A DNA stretch of 64,000 nucleotides from Oscillatoriales cyanobacterium (GTDB taxonomy: Bacteria; Cyanobacteriota; Cyanobacteriia; Cyanobacteriales; Laspinemataceae): positions 62,001-126,000 of the forward strand of contig JAABRM010000007.1 in the NCBI GenBank assembly GCA_011390955.1, given 5' to 3'. A model generated the notes under the pieces. That model had not been told where the DNA came from and searched no databases. It was given only the letters and a program-made list of their open reading frames with translations. Positions 926 through 53,166 of this stretch are shown here, piece after piece (position 1 is the stretch's first letter; every line of letters begins with the position of its first letter). A program made the position numbers and the translations under genes.

Positions 926-2377
926 TTATAGCTTAATGTATTCTTGAAATATCCGGTTGATTTGAAACAATCCTCGCCCCCTCTCTGATATTTTTTCGAC
1001 TAAGCCCCGTCTGCCTAAAGATTGCATAGCTTCGGTTAATTCTGATTTGGAAAATTCCCGTAATCCAGATGCTTGAGAAATATCTACCGCTTCATTCTGG
1101 CTGGCTAACCAGGATATCACTTTTTGCTCTAACTTTGATAATCGCTCTAAGTGGTATGCTAAAATTGGTTTTAAGTCGCCGATAAATATCTCCTCTCTCT
1201 GCCCCCCTTTTTTAAGGGGGGGTTGGGGGGGATCTCCTAAAAATAAGGAAACGCTACCATCAAATAGTTCTAATATCGTTGAGGCGATGATATTTAACCA
1301 GGTGGGATGACCTTGATAGAGGTTGATTAATTCTGGCCATTTTTCTGAGTCGGTTAATCCGTGTTCTTTCAAAATTTCTTCAGCATCGGATTCTAATCCT
1401 TTGAGGTTTAAGGTGCGGGTGGATTGTTTTTCTGCTGCTAAGGTAGCAATTTCTCTGGGTTTTTCCCAACTCAGGAGAATCACGCAACTTTGATGATGGT
1501 TTTTGGCGATTTGTTGCCAGAATTGGCCATATTCTTTATGTTCGGTTAAGTATTGACCGGCTAATTCACCGCTTTGAAAAAGATTTTGCAGGTCATCGAG
1601 GATGACTAAACAGCGCGAGTTACGAAAGTAATCAATTATTGTCGGTAATGGGGGCGGTTGGGACTGGGCAAAAAATTGTTGCAGTTGGTTTTTTAGGGAG
1701 GAAAGGGTGGGAGTTTCTGTGAGACTTCGCCAAATAATATAGTCAAATTCAGGCTTGATTTGTTCGATGAGTTGCCTGGTTAGTAAGCTTTTGCCAATGC
1801 CACTTAATCCATAGATGGTGATTAAGCGGATCTGGTCTTGTAAGATCCACTGTTTGAGGGTATTTAGTTCGGTGGTGCGGTTGTAAAATTCCGTGAGGTC
1901 TGGGGCGTCGGTTAAGTCAATAATGGGTGAAGAATTTTGGGTGGGGGAAGAGTCGGGGGAAGAGTTAGGGGAAGAGTCAGGAGAAGAGGGCGATCGCTGT
2001 TGAGTATCTTTAATAGTTTGTACAAACTGATGACCAATATTAACAGTATCAAATTGATTAACAGTATCAACATCAACTTGTAAACAGTGACCGGATTGGG
2101 GAGATTGAGAAACCCGATATTTTTTCTCTACCTTGGAACGAAAATTATACTTTTTCAGGTCTTCTCCTAATTCTTCCCGTAACTTTTCCCATAACTTAGC
2201 GGCTTCTTTTTTAACGTGAGATTCACGACAATTATTATATTCTTTAGCAATTTGAGAATACTTTTTCCCTGACCACACACCCTTGAGTATGGCTTCCTCT
2301 ATAGGCTTGAGAGGTTCGCCGGTTTTCTCAAGGATCAGCTTTTCAGCCCACTCTAACACTTCTTCAATATTTTTCAT
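926..2377 (-). CDS. Small STAND NTPase: N-terminal HTH plus NB-ARC, no sensor repeats (copy 1)
   Basis: 483 residues. Residues 1-90 form a helical HTH-like domain starting MKNIEEVLEWAEKL, of the kind found at the N-terminus of cyanobacterial NB-ARC/WD40 proteins. A Ser/Pro-rich linker (about 128-151, SSPDSSPNSSPD type) leads to an NB-ARC ATPase with Walker A GLSGIGKS (190-197) and Walker B CLVILDD (256-262). A winged-helix-like tail ends at EYIKL. No WD40, TPR or pentapeptide repeats follow, so it is short for the STAND class. Residues 382-392 (DPPQPPLKKGG) are a translated dispersed DNA repeat. The NB-ARC core is nearly identical to that of the protein at 50141-51499, while the HTH domains differ. 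It is divergent from the gene at 2541 across a decamer array. Role as a signal-gated regulator is inference. Confidence 0.85.
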   Translation of the reverse strand: MKNIEEVLEWAEKLILEKTGEPLKPIEEAILKGVWSGKKYSQIAKEYNNCRESHVKKEAAKLWEKLREELGEDLKKYNFRSKVEKKYRVSQSPQSGHCLQVDVDTVNQFDTVNIGHQFVQTIKDTQQRSPSSPDSSPNSSPDSSPTQNSSPIIDLTDAPDLTEFYNRTTELNTLKQWILQDQIRLITIYGLSGIGKSLLTRQLIEQIKPEFDYIIWRSLTETPTLSSLKNQLQQFFAQSQPPPLPTIIDYFRNSRCLVILDDLQNLFQSGELAGQYLTEHKEYGQFWQQIAKNHHQSCVILLSWEKPREIATLAAEKQSTRTLNLKGLESDAEEILKEHGLTDSEKWPELINLYQGHPTWLNIIASTILELFDGSVSLFLGDPPQPPLKKGGQREEIFIGDLKPILAYHLERLSKLEQKVISWLASQNEAVDISQASGLREFSKSELTEAMQSLGRRGLVEKISERGRGLFQINRIFQEYIKL

Positions 2378-2418
2378 CAGTAAAAATACAGATACTTTAT
2401 CTTAAAGAAAGAACTATA

Positions 2419-2477
2419 TCCTACCAAATCCTACTTTGTCAATATCAAGGAACCAAATCCTACTAAATCCTACTAAA
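2419..2477. promoter_or_regulatory. Phased decamer direct repeats TCCTACTAAA in the divergent promoter region
   Basis: Four copies of a 10-nt unit lie between the STAND gene and the divergent gene at 2541: 2419 TCCTACCAAA, 2429 TCCTACTTTG, 2458 TCCTACTAAA and 2468 TCCTACTAAA. The pairs are exactly 10 nt apart and the two pairs start 39 nt apart, so all sit close to one face of the helix. The paralogous locus at 51.5 kb carries the same layout with TCCCACTTTT units. This suits an operator bound cooperatively by the STAND HTH domain (inference). Confidence 0.6.
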
Positions 2478-2540
2478 TTTTTTCAGGATACTGGGAAAAA
2501 TTGGGTACTAAATTTACTGTCTTATGGTTGTCGTATATAA

Positions 2541-2984
2541 ATGTTACAGAGTAAGATTGGGGAAACGATCAAAAGCAGATTCAAGGATCATAATTTTATG
2601 ATTTTGGTGATCGTTAATCATCTGAAACATTTTATGCCTAGTCGCAGAGCACGTTTACATACTATTATTCATGCAGCAGCGACAGAAGCTACAGCCGTTG
2701 GGTTTGCCACTGCCCAAATTCCGGGAGACCGCCTTGTGATTGGTGCTGTTCAACTCAATATGACAATTGAATTGGCGGCTGAGTTCGGACACAATATTGA
2801 TAAAGCTGCCGCTATGTCTATAATCACTACAGGTGCATCGACTTTTATCGGAGTTGAGACATGTAATGCTATCATCAAATATGCTCCAGGAATAGGAAAT
2901 GCAGCTAATATGATTACTGCTGCTTCTGTCACTGAAACGATTGGTTGGGCTGTTGTTGAATATTACGAAAATAAAAAAAAATAA
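2541..2984 (+). CDS. DUF697-like stand-alone hydrophobic protein
   Basis: 147 residues starting MLQSKIGETI. From about residue 50 the alternating small/hydrophobic pattern (HAAATEATAVGFA, IPGDRLVIGAVQL, AEFG, KYAPGIGNAANM, ETIGWAVVEYYE) resembles the DUF697 membrane-associated domain usually fused behind Era/YcjX-type small GTPases. Here no GTPase domain is present. The first six residues match those of the 56-residue peptide at 51740, and both genes are divergent from paralogous STAND genes. No good Shine-Dalgarno is seen. Membrane association is inferred from the hydrophobic helices. Function is unknown. Confidence 0.6.
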   Translation: MLQSKIGETIKSRFKDHNFMILVIVNHLKHFMPSRRARLHTIIHAAATEATAVGFATAQIPGDRLVIGAVQLNMTIELAAEFGHNIDKAAAMSIITTGASTFIGVETCNAIIKYAPGIGNAANMITAASVTETIGWAVVEYYENKKK

Positions 2985-3019
2985 TGGCATTGCATTATTT
3001 TGAATTTCCCAGAAACATA

Positions 3020-3050
3020 GAAACCCGGTTTCTTCAAGAAACCGGGTTTC
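3020..3050. repeat. Perfect palindrome GAAACCCGGTTTCTT, copy 1
   Basis: 15-bp arms (GAAACCCGGTTTCTT and its complement) are separated by one base and followed by a shared tail reading TGCATTTCTGGACAATTTT. The same palindrome plus tail occurs at 53259-53289 and 54019-54049. It is a small dispersed hairpin element between genes and may act as a terminator-like structure for the gene at 2541. Confidence 0.8.
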
Positions 3051-3166
3051 TGCATTTCTGGACAATTTTCTGACAGAAATTAGCGACGGGATTCTCGCGA
3101 TTGGCTTGGCGCGATCGCACATATTCCTATACCGTTTCCAATTAAAAATGCAACCCTTTTGGGCGC

Positions 3167-11689: not shown

Positions 11690-12784
11690 TTAGCTAATAG
11701 ACGGAGCCTGATTGAGGCTAACGGGAATGCCTTCACCGCCAGCAATCAAGTTCGGGAAATGGTGGGTATTCGGCGCGTGCATTGCCTGAATTCCCAGGGT
11801 AGCCCGATTGAGCAAATCTGCATCGGTGGAAATGACTTTTCCGCTGGCATCGATAATCGAATGGTTGAAGTTAAAGCCATTTAAATTAAATGCCATTACC
11901 CCAATTCCCAGGGTGGCAAACCAAATGCCAATGGTGGGAAAAGCGCCCATGAGAAAATGGACAGAACGGCTGTTGCGGATGCCTACTCCGGGAATTAATA
12001 ACCGGCCTAAAAAGCCCGAATGTCCCGCTAAAAGATTGTAAGTTCCTTCTTGTTGGCCAAATTTGTAGCCCACATTGGTAGATTCTAACTCGCTGGTTTC
12101 ACGAATTAAACTGCTGGTGACTAATGACCCATGTAAGGCACTTAACAAAGCCCCGCCAAAAACTCCAGCAACTCCGATCATGTGTAGCGGGTGCATTAAC
12201 ACATTATGTTGTGCTTGGAGGGACATCATAAAATAGAAAGTCCCGGAAATTCCCAAGGGCATTCCTTCAGAAAAGCTGCCTTGTCCGATGGGATAAATTA
12301 GCAGTACGGCAGTCGCGGCGGATGCGGGGGCGGAAAAAGCAACCGCAATCCACGGGCGCATTCCCAGGCGATAGCTTAATTCCCATAACCGGCCCATGTA
12401 AGACCAAATGGCGATCGCAAAATGCAGAATTATTAGTTGATAAGGGCCACCATTGTAAAGCCATTCTTCAATGGAACTGGCTGACCAAATGGGATAGAAA
12501 TGTAAACCGATCGCTGCTGAGGTGGGGACGACGGCGGCGGTAATCATATTTTGATTACCTAAAATTGAGCCAAAAATTGGTTCGCGGATCCCTTCCATAT
12601 CCACCGCAGGGGCGGCAATAAAGGCGATCGCAAATGTCGTCGCTGCGACCAGGAATGTAGGAATCATCAAGACACCAAACCACCCAATATAAATGCGGTT
12701 TTCCGTGCTAACGATCCAGTCTACAAACATCGGCCACAAGTCACCGATATCGAGTTCGCGTTTGGGTTGTAAAACGGTACTCAT
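11690..12784 (-). CDS. psbA: Atypical (rogue/sentinel-class) photosystem II D1 protein
   Basis: 364 residues, clearly D1 but divergent. Using standard D1 numbering (this protein is offset by +3), TyrZ 161, His190, His198 and His215 are kept. Water-oxidation residues are lost: D61E, N87A, D170E, N181Y, E189Q, E333A and D342L, while H332, H337 and A344 remain. Position 130 is Leu. On the acceptor side the QB-site S264 and F265 read Gly and Ile, with a one-residue insertion after His252. Loss of Mn ligands defines the rogue (group 2, sentinel) D1 class, reported to give a photosystem II that cannot evolve oxygen. It is not ChlF, which has a QD pair at 130/131. Location beside sulfide genes suggests expression under sulfidic or anoxic conditions (inference). 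Confidence 0.93.
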
Positions 12785-39909: not shown

Positions 39910-41514
39910 TCAACTAACCCTTAACAACAGTTGCACGTTGTGGGCGGCATATCCCACCTCTAGTTCCGGTTCTCCTTGCAGCAGGGTTTCAATTTGGGTC
40001 AAATATTCGGTAATTCGGCTTTCACTTCTAAAGGTTCGCCGCAGTCGATCTTGAATCGGCGTGAGAATTTCGGTGATTTGGTTTGCTTTGATGGCGGCTG
40101 GGGCTTGAGGCTGAACGAGGGCATGACTCCGCAACAAAACTAATTTCTCGGTTTTTTTGGTGCGGAACACTTCCCGAATTTCGGCGGATACTTGGTCAAT
40201 AATTTGGCTGGTGACATATTCCATTAATAAAGGTTGAAGGGAAAAGACCGCTTCTTCGAGATCGGGATGTTTTTCAATGAGCGATCGCTGCCCCAGGGAA
40301 GCCACTGCTTCGAGGAGTTCTCGTTGGGACACCGGCAGGATCATATTTTCCCGCAGTTTGGCCAAAGAAACGGGCTGACGTTCAATGGCTAACCATTGGA
40401 GAATTTCCCTTTCTAATAGAGAGAGGCGATCGCACTGTGACGCCACCAAGCCGCTAATATCCCCAAAGACCAGGGTATTTTGTTTGAGAAATTCGGCAAC
40501 CTGACCGCCAAATAAATCTCTAATCGTCGTGGCGACAATTTTGAGGGCCAGAGGGTTGCCGCGATACAGAGAAATCAGGGCATCCCATCGATCGGGGCTG
40601 CCTAAACTTTTTTCGGGGAAAATTTCCCTGGCGTCTGGGGTGTGCAGGTCTTGCAGAGGCAGCGATCGCCCCGGCATAGTTTTGCCTTCCAACAGCGCAA
40701 TTTCCTTGGGTTTTTCCTGACTGGTAATCAGCAGACAGCTTTTATGGGGTTCTTCACCCAGACGGCGGAAAAACTCACCATAGTCCTGATATCCAGGGGC
40801 ATATTGACCCGCCAATTCTCCTGAAAGCAAAATGGTTTCTGCACTATCCAGGACTAACAGACAGCGATATTTACGCAGATAGGCAATCAGTTGGCTAATT
40901 TTATCGTTAATTTCCGTAAGGGGATAGTTAAAAGGGCGACGATAGAGAAATTTCAGCAGATTATCTAGTAAATCTTTTAATGAAGGGGCATGACGCAGCG
41001 ATCGCCAAATCATGTAATCAAAACGATCCTGAAGCTGGTGGGCTAACTTCACCGATAGGGCGGTTTTGCCAATGCCTGCCATGCCAAACACCGCCACCAC
41101 CCGACATTCTTGAGATAAAATCCAATCTTCCAGAGTCGCCAATTCCTCAGTCCGACCATAAAAAATTGACACATCCGGGGCTTCCCCCCAGTCTTGCCGA
41201 GGTTTCATCGTATCTTCCATCAACAAAGCCAGGTCATCCCCGGAAGTTTGCATCACCATCAGGGCTTGGTGGTCTTGATACTGGGTGACTAAAATCTGTT
41301 GCAACTTAGCCATTTTGCCCGGACCCGCCCCAGCAATATGAAATTTTTTATATACTTCGCCCAAGCGTTTGCGGACGGCTTCGGCGCGAATCTCTAAATT
41401 AGTCGCGATCGCCGTAATCGTTTCACCAGCCAAAGCATGAGACAACACCTCTAACTCTGACTCCGAGACACCATGTTCAGCCGCCACAGCTTTGAGAAAA
41501 TCTTGGGGAATCAC
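39910..41514 (-). CDS. STAND NTPase (HTH-NB-ARC) truncated before its repeat domain
   Basis: 534 residues. Residues 1-80 carry a LuxR-like HTH (SELEVLSHALAGETITAIATNLEIR, then VRKRLGEVYKKF). NB-ARC follows with Walker A GMAGIGKT (144-151), Walker B CLLVLDSAE and a GNPLALK GxP motif. The end (RITEYLTQIETLLQGE, ELEVGYAAHNVQLLL) is the linker that in full-length relatives is followed by pentapeptide or WD40 repeats. Here the gene stops exactly where the heptamer/TTGATGG array begins. So the sensor part seems to have been lost, and the protein may be a remnant or a minimal form. Confidence 0.85.
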   Translation of the reverse strand: MIPQDFLKAVAAEHGVSESELEVLSHALAGETITAIATNLEIRAEAVRKRLGEVYKKFHIAGAGPGKMAKLQQILVTQYQDHQALMVMQTSGDDLALLMEDTMKPRQDWGEAPDVSIFYGRTEELATLEDWILSQECRVVAVFGMAGIGKTALSVKLAHQLQDRFDYMIWRSLRHAPSLKDLLDNLLKFLYRRPFNYPLTEINDKISQLIAYLRKYRCLLVLDSAETILLSGELAGQYAPGYQDYGEFFRRLGEEPHKSCLLITSQEKPKEIALLEGKTMPGRSLPLQDLHTPDAREIFPEKSLGSPDRWDALISLYRGNPLALKIVATTIRDLFGGQVAEFLKQNTLVFGDISGLVASQCDRLSLLEREILQWLAIERQPVSLAKLRENMILPVSQRELLEAVASLGQRSLIEKHPDLEEAVFSLQPLLMEYVTSQIIDQVSAEIREVFRTKKTEKLVLLRSHALVQPQAPAAIKANQITEILTPIQDRLRRTFRSESRITEYLTQIETLLQGEPELEVGYAAHNVQLLLRVS

Positions 41515-42628: not shown

Positions 42629-43711
42629 ATGACTACTACTCTGCAACAACGCGAAAGCGCTTCTCTGTGGCAGCGCTTCTGCTCCTGGGTCACAAGCACC
42701 GACAACCGCATTTATGTGGGCTGGTTCGGCGTCCTGATGATCCCCACCCTGCTGACCGCAACTATCTGCTACATCATTGCTTTCGTCGCTGCTCCTCCAG
42801 TGGACATCGACGGGATCCGCGAACCTGTGGCTGGTTCCTTACTGTTAGGCAACAACATCATCTCTGGTGCGGTTGTTCCTTCCAGCAATGCGATCGGTCT
42901 GCACTTCTACCCCATTTGGGAAGCGGCTTCTCTCGATGAGTGGCTGTACAATGGCGGCCCATATCAGTTAGTGATTTTCCACTTCCTGATCGGCATCTTC
43001 TGCTACATGGGTCGTGAGTGGGAATTGTCCTACCGCTTAGGTATGCGTCCTTGGATCTGCGTCGCTTACAGCGCTCCCGTAGCTGCTGCTAGTGCCGTGT
43101 TCCTGATCTACCCCATCGGTCAAGGTTCTTTCTCCGATGGTATGCCTCTGGGTATCTCTGGAACCTTCAACTTTATGTTGGTGTTCCAAGCTGAGCACAA
43201 TATCCTGATGCACCCCTTCCACATGTTGGGTGTAGCCGGTGTGTTCGGTGGCGCTTTGTTCTCCGCCATGCACGGTTCTTTGGTGACTTCTTCTTTGGTG
43301 CGTGAAACCACCGAAGTGGAAAGCCAAAACTATGGTTACAAGTTTGGTCAAGAGGAAGAAACCTACAACATCGTTGCCGCTCACGGTTACTTTGGTCGTC
43401 TGATCTTCCAATACGCTTCCTTCAACAACAGCCGCTCTCTGCACTTCTTCTTGGGTGCATGGCCGGTGATTGGGATCTGGTTCACCGCTCTGGGCGTGTC
43501 CACTATGGCCTTCAACCTGAACGGTTTCAACTTCAACCAATCTATTGTTGACTCTCAAGGTCGCACCATCAACACCTGGGCCGACGTGATCAACCGCGCT
43601 AACCTGGGTATGGAAGTAATGCACGAGCGTAATGCTCACAACTTCCCCTTGGATTTGGCTGCTGGTGAAGCTGCTCCTGTGGCTTTGAGTGCGCCTCAAA
43701 TCAACGGCTAA
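42629..43711 (+). CDS. psbA: Photosystem II D1 protein, standard type, copy 1
   Basis: 360 residues, canonical oxygen-evolving D1 of the thylakoid photosystem II core. All Mn4Ca ligands are present: Asp170, Glu189, His332, Glu333, His337, Asp342 and Ala344 before the cleaved C-terminal extension. TyrZ161, His190 and QB-site Ser264 are intact. Glu130 marks the high-light-type isoform. Nearly identical to copy 2 at 45584; the protein differs only by Ala/Thr in the last residues (LSAPQING here). Terminator at 43741. Confidence 0.98.
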
Positions 43712-45583: not shown

Positions 45584-46666
45584 ATGACTACTACTCTGCA
45601 ACAACGCGAAAGCGCTTCTCTGTGGCAGCGCTTCTGCTCCTGGGTCACAAGCACCGACAACCGCATTTATGTGGGCTGGTTCGGCGTCCTGATGATCCCC
45701 ACCCTGCTGACCGCAACTATCTGCTACATCATTGCTTTCGTCGCTGCTCCTCCAGTGGACATCGACGGGATCCGCGAACCTGTGGCTGGTTCCTTACTGT
45801 TAGGCAACAACATCATCTCTGGTGCGGTTGTTCCTTCCAGCAATGCGATCGGTCTGCACTTCTACCCCATTTGGGAAGCGGCTTCTCTCGATGAGTGGCT
45901 GTACAATGGCGGCCCATATCAGTTAGTGATTTTCCACTTCCTGATCGGCATCTTCTGCTACATGGGTCGTGAGTGGGAATTGTCCTACCGCTTAGGTATG
46001 CGTCCTTGGATCTGCGTCGCTTACAGCGCTCCCGTAGCTGCTGCTAGTGCCGTGTTCCTGATCTACCCCATCGGTCAAGGTTCTTTCTCCGATGGTATGC
46101 CTCTGGGTATCTCTGGAACCTTCAACTTTATGTTGGTGTTCCAAGCTGAGCACAATATCCTGATGCACCCCTTCCACATGTTGGGTGTAGCCGGTGTGTT
46201 CGGTGGCGCTTTGTTCTCCGCCATGCACGGTTCTTTGGTGACTTCTTCTTTGGTGCGTGAAACCACCGAAGTGGAAAGCCAAAACTATGGTTACAAGTTT
46301 GGTCAAGAGGAAGAAACCTACAACATCGTTGCCGCTCACGGTTACTTTGGTCGTCTGATCTTCCAATACGCTTCCTTCAACAACAGCCGCTCTCTGCACT
46401 TCTTCTTGGGTGCATGGCCGGTGATTGGGATTTGGTTCACCGCTCTGGGCGTGTCCACTATGGCCTTCAACCTGAACGGTTTCAACTTCAACCAATCTAT
46501 CGTTGACTCTCAAGGTCGCACCATCAACACCTGGGCCGACGTGATCAACCGCGCTAACTTGGGTATGGAAGTCATGCACGAGCGCAACGCTCACAACTTC
46601 CCCTTAGATTTGGCGGCTGGCGAAGCTGCTCCTGTGGCTTTGAGTACACCTCAAATCAACGGCTAA
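45584..46666 (+). CDS. psbA: Photosystem II D1 protein, standard type, copy 2
   Basis: 360 residues, identical to copy 1 except for LSTPQING at the C-terminus. The DNA is identical for most of the gene; differences cluster in the last 250 nt, and the 3' flanks differ, which points to ongoing gene conversion of the 5' part. All water-oxidation ligands and Glu130 are present. Multiple high-light psbA copies support fast D1 turnover. Confidence 0.98.
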
Positions 46667-50140: not shown

Positions 50141-51499
50141 CTAAATGTACTTTTTAAAGACAGGATTTAGCAGAAAGCGCGATCGCCCTCCCGCGATCAC
50201 TTTTTCGGCTAATCCTCGTCTGACTAAAGATTGGATAGCGTCCCATAATTCCGATTGGGAAATTTCGCTTAATCCAGGTTGTCGTGAAATCTCTACCGCT
50301 TCATCTTCTGAAAATCTGGATATGACTTTTTTTTCTAACTCCGATAAACGGTCTAATTGAGATTCTATAATTGGGGATAAGTCGCCGATAAATATCTCCT
50401 CCTCCTTAAGCCCCCCCTTTCCAAGGGGGGGTTGGGGGGGATTCCCTAAAAATAGGGAAACGCTGCCGTCAAATAGTTCCACGATGGTTGAGGCGATAAT
50501 ATTTAACCAGGTGGGATGACCTTGATAGAGGTTGATTAATTCTGGCCATTTTTGTGAGTCCGTTAATCCGTGTTCTTTCAAAATTTCCTCAGCATCCGCT
50601 GATAATCCTTTCAGGTTTAAGGTGCGGGTGGATTGTTTTTCTGCTGCTAAGGTAGCGAGTTCTCTGGGTTTTTCCCAACTCAGGAGAATGACACAACTTT
50701 GATGATGGTTTTTGGCGATTTGTTGCCAAAATTGGCCATAGTCTTTATGTTCGGCTAAGTATTGACCGGCTAATTCACCGCTTTGAAACAGATTTTGCAG
50801 GTCATCCAGGATGACTAAACAGCGCGAGTTACGAAAGTAATCAATTATTGTGGGTAATTGGGGCTGTTGGGACTGGGCAAAAAATTGTTGCAGTTGGTTT
50901 TTTAGGGAGGAAAGGGTGGGAGTCTCTGTGAGACTTTTCCAAATAATATAGTCAAATTCAGGCTTGATTTGTTCGATGAGTTGCCTGGTTAATACGCTTT
51001 TGCCAATGCCACTTAATCCATAGATGGTAATTAAGCGGATCTGGTCTTGTAATATCCACTGTTTGAGGGTATTTAGTTCGGTGGTGCGGTTGTAAAAGTC
51101 CGTGAGGTCTGGGGCGTCGATTAAGTCGATAATGGGTGAAGAATTTTGGGTGGGGGAAGAGTTAGGAGAAGAGGGCGATCGCTGTTGTTCACTACAAATA
51201 TTGATATTACCTATTTGTAAGCAATTAGCATGATTTTCAGATATTTCTGCTTGTTCTAACACAGAAAACACATTCGACTTTTTAACATCTTCTCCAACCA
51301 CATCAGAAAGAAGTTTCCATAACTTCCACGCTTCTTTTTTCACATGATCGTAGCTTCTCTCATTATTTTCAGCAATTTCATAATAATCCTGATGTTGCCA
51401 AATGCCCTCTAAGATAGATTTTTGTAGCGATTCAAGATGTTTTCCGGTTTTAGCGAATACCTGTTCATCAGTCCAGTTTAAAACTTCTTGAATATCCAT
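50141..51499 (-). CDS. Small STAND NTPase: N-terminal HTH plus NB-ARC (copy 2)
   Basis: 452 residues from the ATG at 51497-51499 (MDIQEVLNWTDEQVF), chosen because it aligns with MKNIEEVLEW of copy 1. An in-frame upstream ATG at 51553 would run through the decamer array. The HTH region (1-85) is related to copy 1 but clearly divergent. The NB-ARC core from PIIDLIDAPDLTDFYNRTTE onward is nearly identical, with Walker A GLSGIGKS and Walker B CLVILDD. It also carries an in-frame dispersed repeat (NPPQPPLGKGG, DNA 50411-50442) and a shorter Ser/Pro linker. It has no sensor repeats. Divergent from the peptide gene at 51740. Confidence 0.87.
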   Translation of the reverse strand: MDIQEVLNWTDEQVFAKTGKHLESLQKSILEGIWQHQDYYEIAENNERSYDHVKKEAWKLWKLLSDVVGEDVKKSNVFSVLEQAEISENHANCLQIGNINICSEQQRSPSSPNSSPTQNSSPIIDLIDAPDLTDFYNRTTELNTLKQWILQDQIRLITIYGLSGIGKSVLTRQLIEQIKPEFDYIIWKSLTETPTLSSLKNQLQQFFAQSQQPQLPTIIDYFRNSRCLVILDDLQNLFQSGELAGQYLAEHKDYGQFWQQIAKNHHQSCVILLSWEKPRELATLAAEKQSTRTLNLKGLSADAEEILKEHGLTDSQKWPELINLYQGHPTWLNIIASTIVELFDGSVSLFLGNPPQPPLGKGGLKEEEIFIGDLSPIIESQLDRLSELEKKVISRFSEDEAVEISRQPGLSEISQSELWDAIQSLVRRGLAEKVIAGGRSRFLLNPVFKKYI

Positions 51500-51527
51500 A
51501 GGACAAAGTGGGGGTATGCAACGATAA

Positions 51528-51630
51528 TCCCACTTTATCACACTTTTTCCCACTTTTTCTCAAAAATCCCACTTTTTCCCACAAAATTGGTGATGTAAAT
51601 AATTGTAAAATGCCACTTTATCCCACTTTT
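51528..51630. promoter_or_regulatory. Phased decamer direct repeats TCCCACTTTT in the divergent promoter region
   Basis: Seven units of a 10-nt motif start at 51528 (TCCCACTTTA), 51538 (TCACACTTTT), 51548 (TCCCACTTTT), 51567 (TCCCACTTTT), 51577 (TCCCACAAAA), 51611 (TGCCACTTTA) and 51621 (TCCCACTTTT). Steps are 10, 10, 19, 10, 34 and 10 nt, so most units share one helical face. Same design as 2419-2477 but with C instead of T at the fourth base and T-rich ends. A likely operator for the STAND HTH or another factor controlling both directions. Confidence 0.65.
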
Positions 51631-51739: not shown

Positions 51740-51910
51740 ATGTTACAAAGCAAAATAGCAGCGGCTCGAGTCACAGAAAAGCAAAACAACACTGCAATTG
51801 ATGAATCTAAGGGCATTGCTCGGCAAGATAACCACAGTGAATGGTATCCGATTGAGGTAGGAACAGAACGAGCAAATCTTATGGCTTGTCCCAAAGGTGC
51901 GCTTTTTTAA
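51740..51910 (+). CDS. Candidate RiPP precursor peptide (56 residues)
   Basis: ATG at 51740 to TAA at 51908-51910. Leader-like charged N-terminus (MLQSKIAAARVTEKQNNTAI), then a core-like C-terminus with HSEWYPIEVG, one Cys and the end LMACPKGALF. The reading frame lies between the decamer array and a radical SAM/SPASM gene 128 nt downstream, on the same strand; a hairpin at 51990 sits between them. Size, single Cys, aromatic-rich end and order (precursor then maturase) fit a RiPP precursor. The first six residues are shared with the 147-residue protein at 2541, which has the same position in the paralogous locus. No family match is recalled. Confidence 0.6.
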   Translation: MLQSKIAAARVTEKQNNTAIDESKGIARQDNHSEWYPIEVGTERANLMACPKGALF

Positions 51911-51989
51911 GCAACGATTAAGATTGTACGATCATCTAAAAAGGTGAGAAACATATAAAAGCAAATTACTATGCAGTAGATCCAATAGA

Positions 51990-52012
51990 GGACGCGATCA
52001 TATGTCGCGTCC
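51990..52012 (+). terminator. Hairpin between peptide and radical SAM genes (attenuator-like)
   Basis: GGACGCGA (51990-51997), 7-nt loop, TCGCGTCC (52005-52012), then TTACTTT, 26 nt before the radical SAM start. A leaky terminator here would give more precursor mRNA than maturase mRNA, as seen in many RiPP operons (inference). Confidence 0.55.
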
Positions 52013-52038
52013 GTTACTTTCTAAGAGAGGAATTATAT

Positions 52039-53166
52039 ATGTTAGTCCATCGGCATATTGGCAATGTAGATTTCGCAATCGATCCATCCCAGCCTGTTGG
52101 GATTTGTTTAAAAACAAATGAAAATGATCGATTAAAATTTTCAAATATTAAAGCTTTTATTGATTGGATTATAGCCAGAGCGAGAATGCCTGCTACTCTT
52201 CAATGGGAGTTGCTTTCAGTCTGCAACTTTAAATGTCGCTTTTGTTATATGGTGGGACATACCGAACCTACGATATTTTCGTCGGAACGGGCTTTTAAAC
52301 TGATTGATGAATTTGTGGATGCGGGGGTTGTTCAAGTCATTTTAACTGGCGGAGAGTGTCTGATCCATCCAAATTTTACAGCCATTTATGAAAAACTCCG
52401 CTTGGCAGGTATTATTGTATCTGTTTTCACTAATTTAGAAAAGTTAACCGCCGAGCATATCGAAATATTTAAGCGTTATCCACCTTATGTGATTGAGGTG
52501 AGCATTTACGGTCACGATGAAGATAGTTACGAAAGAGTCACTGGACGGCGAGCTTTTAACCAGGTACTCCACAACATAGAGATTCTTCGCGACTATGGCT
52601 TTAATCTTCTTTGTAAAACTCCAATAACTACTCTGACCCATAATTCTATTGATTGGATATATAATTGGTGTCAAAATCGTAACCTGGAATATTTGGCAGA
52701 TCCAAGTATTAAGGATGGTCTTGACGGTGATGATTTATCAGACTTTTCCCTAAAATTTGAAGAATATTACGCTGCCGAAAAACTTAGGCTTCACTTAGCG
52801 AAAAACCTAATTAACTCTACGAATTTAGAAAATAGAGATCCGTCTCGTGTTTTTAGCTGCGGAGTTGGTAAAGTAGGTGCTTACATTAACTACGATGCTA
52901 CTCTTTCTCCCTGTTCAAGCATTCGGAATCAGCGCTTCAATCTGATGGAACTTTCCTTCGCTGATGCTTGGCAACAGTTAGTTAATAATATACAAGCACA
53001 GGAAAATTTAGTTATCAGTGGATGTAATCCGAATTGTTCTGCTAGATCAATATGTAAGATGTGTCCCGCAGTAGCTTTCCGTGATGAAGAAGGAAACTAT
53101 AGAGTTAATCCAGCTTATTGTGAGCGACAAATTGCCCTGGCAAAGGTTCTTGCTATTAGTTCTTAG
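52039..53166 (+). CDS. Radical SAM/SPASM peptide maturase
   Basis: 375 residues, start preceded by GAGAGG. The radical SAM cluster motif is CNFKCRFC (Cys62/66/69) with TGGE at 103-106 for SAM binding. The C-terminal SPASM domain has seven Cys: 274, 292, 329, 333, 339, 342 and 361, in the order C-x17-C, CxxxC, CxxxxxC, CxxC, C, enough for two auxiliary [4Fe-4S] clusters. SPASM enzymes modify ribosomal peptides (thioether, C-C or C-O crosslinks, epimerisation). Residues 1-50 precede the barrel and may bind the leader, though no clear RRE fold is seen. Partner is the 56-residue gene upstream. The chemistry cannot be predicted from sequence alone. Confidence 0.9.
   Translation: MLVHRHIGNVDFAIDPSQPVGICLKTNENDRLKFSNIKAFIDWIIARARMPATLQWELLSVCNFKCRFCYMVGHTEPTIFSSERAFKLIDEFVDAGVVQVILTGGECLIHPNFTAIYEKLRLAGIIVSVFTNLEKLTAEHIEIFKRYPPYVIEVSIYGHDEDSYERVTGRRAFNQVLHNIEILRDYGFNLLCKTPITTLTHNSIDWIYNWCQNRNLEYLADPSIKDGLDGDDLSDFSLKFEEYYAAEKLRLHLAKNLINSTNLENRDPSRVFSCGVGKVGAYINYDATLSPCSSIRNQRFNLMELSFADAWQQLVNNIQAQENLVISGCNPNCSARSICKMCPAVAFRDEEGNYRVNPAYCERQIALAKVLAISS

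Follow-up and report, generated by a model that had tools for sequence, protein, structure and literature searches.

MalT and related activators are STAND NTPases that multimerise to act (PMC6468293). MalT-type activators bind direct repeats cooperatively, and in MalT itself a LuxR-type HTH at the C-terminus is combined with a TPR sensor. In AfsR of Streptomyces, adjacent SARP domains occupy 11-bp direct repeats that cover the -35 element and the spacer (PMC10936776). Cyanobacterial sigma-70-like proteins are described in which sigma region 4 or a related HTH is joined to NB-ARC (PMC11119718), and the VMAP/STAND conflict systems of multicellular prokaryotes include, in multicellular cyanobacteria, STAND NTPases near highly diverse effectors (PMC7159879).

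Here, we analyse a stretch of 64,000 nucleotides from an Oscillatoriales cyanobacterium (referred to as the window) with two loci (locus 1 at 0.9-3.0 kb, locus 2 at 50.1-51.9 kb) in which a STAND gene, an array of short repeats and a divergent gene starting with MLQSKI occur together. Most likely, locus 1 comprises a transcription regulator of the STAND (NLR-like) type that is self-addressed, together with an operator array of its own and a divergent cargo, where the binding itself is inferred. Phased arrays are absent from the relevant sections of PMC7159879, PMC10907252, PMC11119718 and PMC10936776, and the open-access literature that we searched, judged by titles and abstract openings, gave no description of the arrays or of the recognition code.

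Two STAND loci with their own repeat arrays

The regulator gene of locus 1 (926..2377, minus strand) is an ORF of 483 aa with an N-terminal HTH, an NB-ARC domain (Pfam E 2.3e-8, above cut-off) and a C-terminal part; its Pfam matches include no sensor repeat domain. The HTH domain (residues 1-92; 2102..2377, minus strand) is placed by its paralogs and an AlphaFold2 model (pLDDT 88.3, alignment of 99 sequences) in which residues 52-70 form the recognition helix. Structure comparison of this model gives NarL/DNA with Z 7.5, level with Zur, Spo0A and others, while Foldseek returned nothing at E 0.001. At E 0.01, Pfam reports Sigma70_r4 in 15/99 and GerE in 7/99 members of the HTH family and no match for the window HTH itself. 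Among the matches found, none is a Pfam model specific to this family.

Four decamers are located between the STAND gene and the divergent MLQSKI gene (2377-2541), i.e., two perfect copies of TCCTACTAAA at 2458 and 2468, one copy with a single mismatch (TCCTACCAAA at 2419) and one with three mismatches (TCCTACTTTG at 2429). All four share the core TCCTAC, which reads GTAGGA on the strand of the STAND gene. The units are spaced by 10, 29 and 10 bp, such that the two pairs are 1 bp out of strict 10-bp register. The proximal pair (2419..2434, minus strand; GTAGG at 2420-2424 and 2430-2434) is within the 18-bp spacer of the predicted STAND promoter, TTGACA-18-TATAGT, whose putative -35 and -10 elements are at 2437..2442 and 2413..2418 (both minus strand); the spacer thus contains two units. 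The distal pair (2458..2477, minus strand; GTAGG at 2459-2463 and 2469-2473) is on the cargo side.

Taken alone, the ten-base word is weak: with at most one mismatch it has 8 matches in the window vs. 3.7 expected, and 3/100 shuffles show as many. Exact 5-mer repeats at a lag of 10 bp, on the other hand, amount to 8 at locus 1 vs. a shuffle mean of 0.09, and none of 300 shuffles reaches 8. The phased array of locus 1 is not a chance product. Without mismatch, its two-unit word occurs twice in the 7.1-Mb genome, both times at locus 1.

The divergent cargo of locus 1 (2541..2984, plus strand) encodes a glycine/alanine-rich, helical protein of 147 aa that starts with MLQSKI and has homologs at three other loci (L163, L117, L181). 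Pfam gives no match for it. The helical model is of low confidence (pLDDT 63.9, four-sequence alignment) and its comparison with the PDB gave no useful match; its pore-like look is an impression only.

At locus 2, the paralogous regulator gene (50141..51499, minus strand) is supported by the ORF list and Pfam (NB-ARC, E 5.4e-10, above cut-off). The listed ORF starts with GTG, extends to 51553 and runs into the array; the ATG at 51499 is probably the true start. The array (about 51527..51626, minus strand) consists of units with the core GTGGG, some reading GTGTG or GTGGC, i.e., TCCCAC in place of the TCCTAC of locus 1, and its mismatch-free two-unit word is confined to locus 2 within the genome. 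The divergent cargo (51740..51910, plus strand) is a 56-aa MLQSKI peptide, a candidate RiPP precursor with an ortholog in Planktothrix (L180), and is adjoined by a radical SAM enzyme gene (52039..53166, plus strand; Pfam Radical_SAM E 4.5e-22). Beside Planktothrix L180, the peptide is present in only 1 of 120 genomes of the order, namely the source genome. The region 51740-53166 can be read as a candidate RiPP cassette, and the peptide's C-terminus DNHSEWY.IEVGTERAN.M.CPK.ALF is shared with L180.

When the two loci are compared, the DNA coding for NB-ARC is 92-97% identical (alignment columns 400-1100) vs. 60-63% for the HTH/linker DNA. The near-identity of the NB-ARC parts is hence a computed result. 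An earlier note, made from the sequence alone, had claimed four decamers with 10-nt phasing, a second locus with a paralogous STAND gene, its own decamers and an MLQSKI gene, and nearly identical NB-ARC cores with differing HTHs and decamers. These observations held, with small corrections.

Some further features of the window were recorded. Both STAND genes contain a dispersed C-run/G-run repeat (about 1203-1240 and 50415-50445), read as PPQPPL[KG]KGG. Another NB-ARC gene with a weak N-terminal GerE-type HTH (39910-41514, minus strand) is outside the HTH family analysed. Two nearly identical psbA-like (photosystem II D1) genes, named by eye, are found 3 kb apart at 42629-43711 and 45584-46666, and a diverged third copy is at 11690-12784 (minus strand).

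Phasing and recognition code across the paralog family

Searching with the HTH, we found paralogs at 32 places in the source genome. A profile search of three congeneric genomes (E <= 1e-10) gave 31, 49 and 53 places, with 31 for the source. HTH matches occur in 87/120 genomes of the order and 120/291 of the class (E <= 1e-20), where many class matches outside the order fall in ORFs of other length. For one family (f2), all 59 sampled genomes match, with 1 to 30 matches per genome (E <= 1e-15). From these searches, 227 unique loci were gathered, of which 174 have an array call (53 have none) and 134 are non-redundant; the latter form the covariation set, with HTH identity below 90% between loci. 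Of 105 chosen regions 100 were taken in, before analysis, and 13 G001 places with a G002 twin were excluded. The 227 loci are biased towards high-scoring matches and thus do not form a random sample.

A general repeat score, tried as array detector, performs well vs. mononucleotide shuffles but is unspecific vs. control genes: at a score of 1.75, 174/227 loci pass as well as 25/87 control genes. We therefore used the lag profile instead. Exact 5-mer repeats at a lag of 10 bp are found for 51% of 170 non-redundant loci vs. 13% of 87 control genes, and at 20 bp for 31% vs. 6%. The signal is weak at 9 bp (15% vs. 6%) and other lags are near control level, while the repeats of control genes show no 10-bp peak. 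The phasing is thus shown for the family. The same holds for its overlap with promoters, i.e., a unit is inside the -35/-10 spacer at 49 of the 69 loci with both calls, for which no shuffle control was made. Separately, a long run of decamers in which the cores GTAGG, GTCGG and GTGGG alternate in no single type was observed at about 2860-3060 of region L276 (G000:C53, near 116.36-116.56 kb). No HTH gene was found within the 6 kb read, and this is possibly either an array without a regulator or a simple minisatellite.

To relate HTHs and arrays, cores were called and aligned in register blind to the protein. Among 86 columns over the 134 loci, the top column is 50 for base 3 (z 19.7), 53 for base 1 (z 10.5), 54 for base 4 (z 10.1) and 51 for base 5 (z 7.8), all within the first turn of the recognition helix; for base 2 no column of this helix comes out on top. 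Matched by eye, columns 50, 51, 53 and 54 correspond to S53, H54, K56 and K57 of the locus 1 regulator, i.e., the start of its recognition helix. NarL reads DNA with equivalent helix positions. Base 3 follows residue 50 (Gly-C 36/40, Asp-G 19/21, Ser mostly A with 16/30) and base 4 follows residue 54 (Asp-G 47/54, Asn-A or C 19/21). With average-product correction, columns 24, 46, 8 and 23 also enter the top list. Both window loci obey the inferred code, with Ser and GTAGG at locus 1 and Asp and GTGGG at locus 2, where binding data are not available.

For base 3, the four residues give the right base in 71% of cases when training is restricted to loci below 60% identity in the remaining HTH, vs. 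43% for the remaining HTH itself and 49% for the majority base. For bases 1, 2 and 5, the four residues do not exceed the majority base. In tail-matched pairs, base 3 differs in 40/55 pairs with different residue 50 vs. 17/52 with the same residue, and base 4 in 29/59 pairs with different residue 54 vs. 13/61. An ortholog pair with the same peptide and radical SAM gene follows suit, i.e., Planktothrix L180 combines Ala50 with GTAGG and window locus 2 Asp50 with GTGGG.

Finally, prediction rules were written down before held-out loci were scored. From 103 matches, we removed 30 from the same locus, 16 with at least 90% identity to training, 6 duplicates and 13 without array, which leaves 38 loci, 29 of them callable per base. 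Base 4 was correct in 25/29 cases (majority 18; 0/5000 shuffles as good) and base 3 in 17/29 (majority 11; p 0.001). The latter had 12 misses, 5 of them predicted A and read T, largely the S50-Y51 group. Both covariation and held-out prediction are thus computational results. The main claim of the earlier note, namely that every HTH recognises the repeat variant at its own locus, is supported by covariation across the paralog loci, a check it had proposed and which was passed, as well as by the matched pairs and the held-out prediction; no binding data back it.

The separation of the cores is incomplete. Core collisions are nearly as frequent within genomes (91/571) as between them (443/2302), such that insulation is only partial. 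Some automatic cores in this count (GCCCC, CCCCC) look like low-complexity miscalls and were retained. Given a merely slight deficit of collisions, we dropped the idea that words are selected to be unique in their genome, and strict insulation is not claimed. Loci whose tails are only 7-15% apart carry different HTHs and cores, and this looks, as an inference, as if the NB-ARC part is exchanged or converted around HTH-array cassettes.

Cargo diversity and the MLQSKI start

The dominant ORF is divergent at 193/219 loci, using a crude longest-ORF rule. Nine of the ten cargo proteins scanned have a Pfam match, and the types comprise SIR2-like, UvrD-like helicase, radical SAM, AIG1 and MMR_HSR1 GTPases, formyl transferase and DUF6232, as well as an N6_N4 methylase fused to Mrr and an MvdD-like ATP-grasp (below cut-off). 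Cargo varies even among the close orthologs L001, L150, L154 and L161. Cargo diversity is therefore shown. NCBIfam and PADLOC scans gave nothing decisive; the PADLOC models yielded only weak NTPase and viperin-like radical SAM matches and none for the 147-aa cargo. At one locus (L041, C72:126790), two similar 58-aa proteins (MTVYQ...) are found divergently upstream of a single STAND gene.

MLQSKI opens both cargo genes of the window, 2541-2984 and 51740-51910 (plus strand). A start of the form LQx[KR][ILVM] occurs at only 7/221 loci, which rules out MLQSK as a family-wide signal; among same-strand control ORFs, 0/684 match. An MLQ[SD]KI leader before different cargo is found for the locus 1 relatives L150 and L154 and for the RiPP-like pair (window locus 2 and L180). 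L150 has the short ORF MLQDKIRETSKLDFVV and L154, by eye, a 31-codon ORF ending just ahead of the cargo start; both keep the frame MLQDKIRET at the same place with other cargo. The Planktothrix ortholog of the peptide starts MLQSKIAETP... beside the same radical SAM gene. It shares MLQSKI[AG]ET with locus 1, the DNA differences being mostly at third codon positions (by eye). Because the leader is kept by close orthologs before other cargo and by L180, MLQSKI was probably inherited as a leader within a small subclade. The earlier note's reading as a shared 5' signal before different cargo thus held in part, i.e., only locally, for close relatives of locus 1 and the RiPP-like pair (such starts at 7/221 loci).

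Whether the 147-aa protein itself starts there is less clear. At L163, which has the same cargo, ATA replaces the ATG of the MLQSKI start codon, and the alignment with the L117 and L181 homologs begins only further inside. The true start of this cargo is possibly internal. The cargo of L142 and L059, members of a DUF6232-like cluster, contains LQSKL in its N-termini, which resembles MLQSKI.

Proposed mechanism, rival readings and known systems

In the preferred reading, the N-terminal HTH would dock its recognition helix onto a 5-bp core G-T-x-x-x that is repeated every 10 bp, such that head-to-tail protomers would face one side of the DNA. Upon a nucleotide-state switch of NB-ARC, the protomers would be driven to associate next to one another along the array, an arrangement that we propose by analogy with AfsR. 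The regulator's own expression would be governed by the units within the -35/-10 spacer, and that of the divergent cargo by the units lying further upstream. DNA binding, assembly driven by NTP, the trigger and the regulatory sign are all inferred, without binding or expression data, and activation cannot be told from repression on the basis of sequence. Since HTH and array change together, copies differ in their address, while the NB-ARC engine is common and nearly identical within the genome.

One could object that the arrays are neutral slippage repeats of a repeat-rich genome and that the correlation of HTH and core merely reflects shared ancestry of neighbouring DNA. Upstream tandem repeats are indeed frequent in control genes of the same genome (25/87 at score 1.75), and the long L276 array has no HTH gene found in 6 kb. 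Yet control repeats lack the 10-bp peak, and covariation singles out the recognition helix among 86 columns, survives identity limits and matched pairs, and predicts held-out loci, which leaves this explanation very improbable. Less remote, but still unlikely, is that the HTH-bound array serves autoregulation alone next to an independent neighbour. In favour are the units in the regulator's own -35/-10 spacer and the cargo exchange among the close orthologs L001, L150, L154 and L161; against it stand the predominance of divergent ORFs (193/219 loci, by the crude rule) and the distal units outside the core promoter on the cargo side.

The MLQSKI of the 147-aa gene is harder to settle. It may be an inherited promoter or leader with an internal Met start, its match to the peptide being partly chance, as suggested by the rarity of such starts (7/221 loci), the ATA of L163 and the L117 and L181 alignments that begin inside. 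On the other hand, L150 and L154 keep the MLQDKIRET frame before other cargo, differences between locus 1 and L180 are mostly at third codon positions, and none of 684 control ORFs matches, so that we lean slightly against this view.

Returning to the self-addressed regulator, a bolder version remains tentative and is, in our judgement, a little more apt to fail than to hold: filamentous cyanobacterial genomes would each harbour dozens of NLR-like transcription switches, every one an NTP-driven filament of protomers bound head to tail on a phased array of its own, with a four-residue code and private conflict or peptide cargo, and new switches would arise by exchange of HTH-array-cargo cassettes around a homogenised NB-ARC.

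As it stands, a single genome contains dozens of paralogous regulators with a common ATPase engine and different DNA addresses beside each reader. The putative code by which an NB-ARC regulator family recognises DNA becomes readable from sequence and testable by single substitutions, and the paralogs offer naturally occurring switches that are partly insulated from one another. For multicellular bacteria, the family also connects NLR-like proteins with the control of transcription for SIR2-like, restriction-like, GTPase and modified-peptide cargo.

Compared to the known systems, the window STAND proteins differ from MalT by their N-terminal HTH and by sensor repeats not being found; neither has TPR or GerE among its Pfam matches (E 0.1). 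The cyanobacterial sigma-70-like/NB-ARC proteins are related in that 15/99 members of the HTH family match Sigma70_r4 (E 0.01), but operator arrays or a recognition code are not described in the relevant sections of PMC11119718. The VMAP/STAND systems are proposed to be signalling and effector complexes, without operator arrays in the relevant sections of PMC7159879. AfsR and the NOD-containing SARPs likewise combine a DNA-binding domain with a NOD, and the direct repeats of AfsR also recur after roughly one helical turn beside the -10 element (11 bp there, 10 bp here). AfsR, however, has a SARP DNA-binding domain and a TPR sensor, and its box is fixed and present in two copies. The Pfam matches of the window STAND proteins (E 0.1) include neither SARP DNA-binding nor BTA domains, and the window family is distinguished from AfsR by a different HTH, no TPR match, units of 10 bp and dozens of paralogs whose cores differ.
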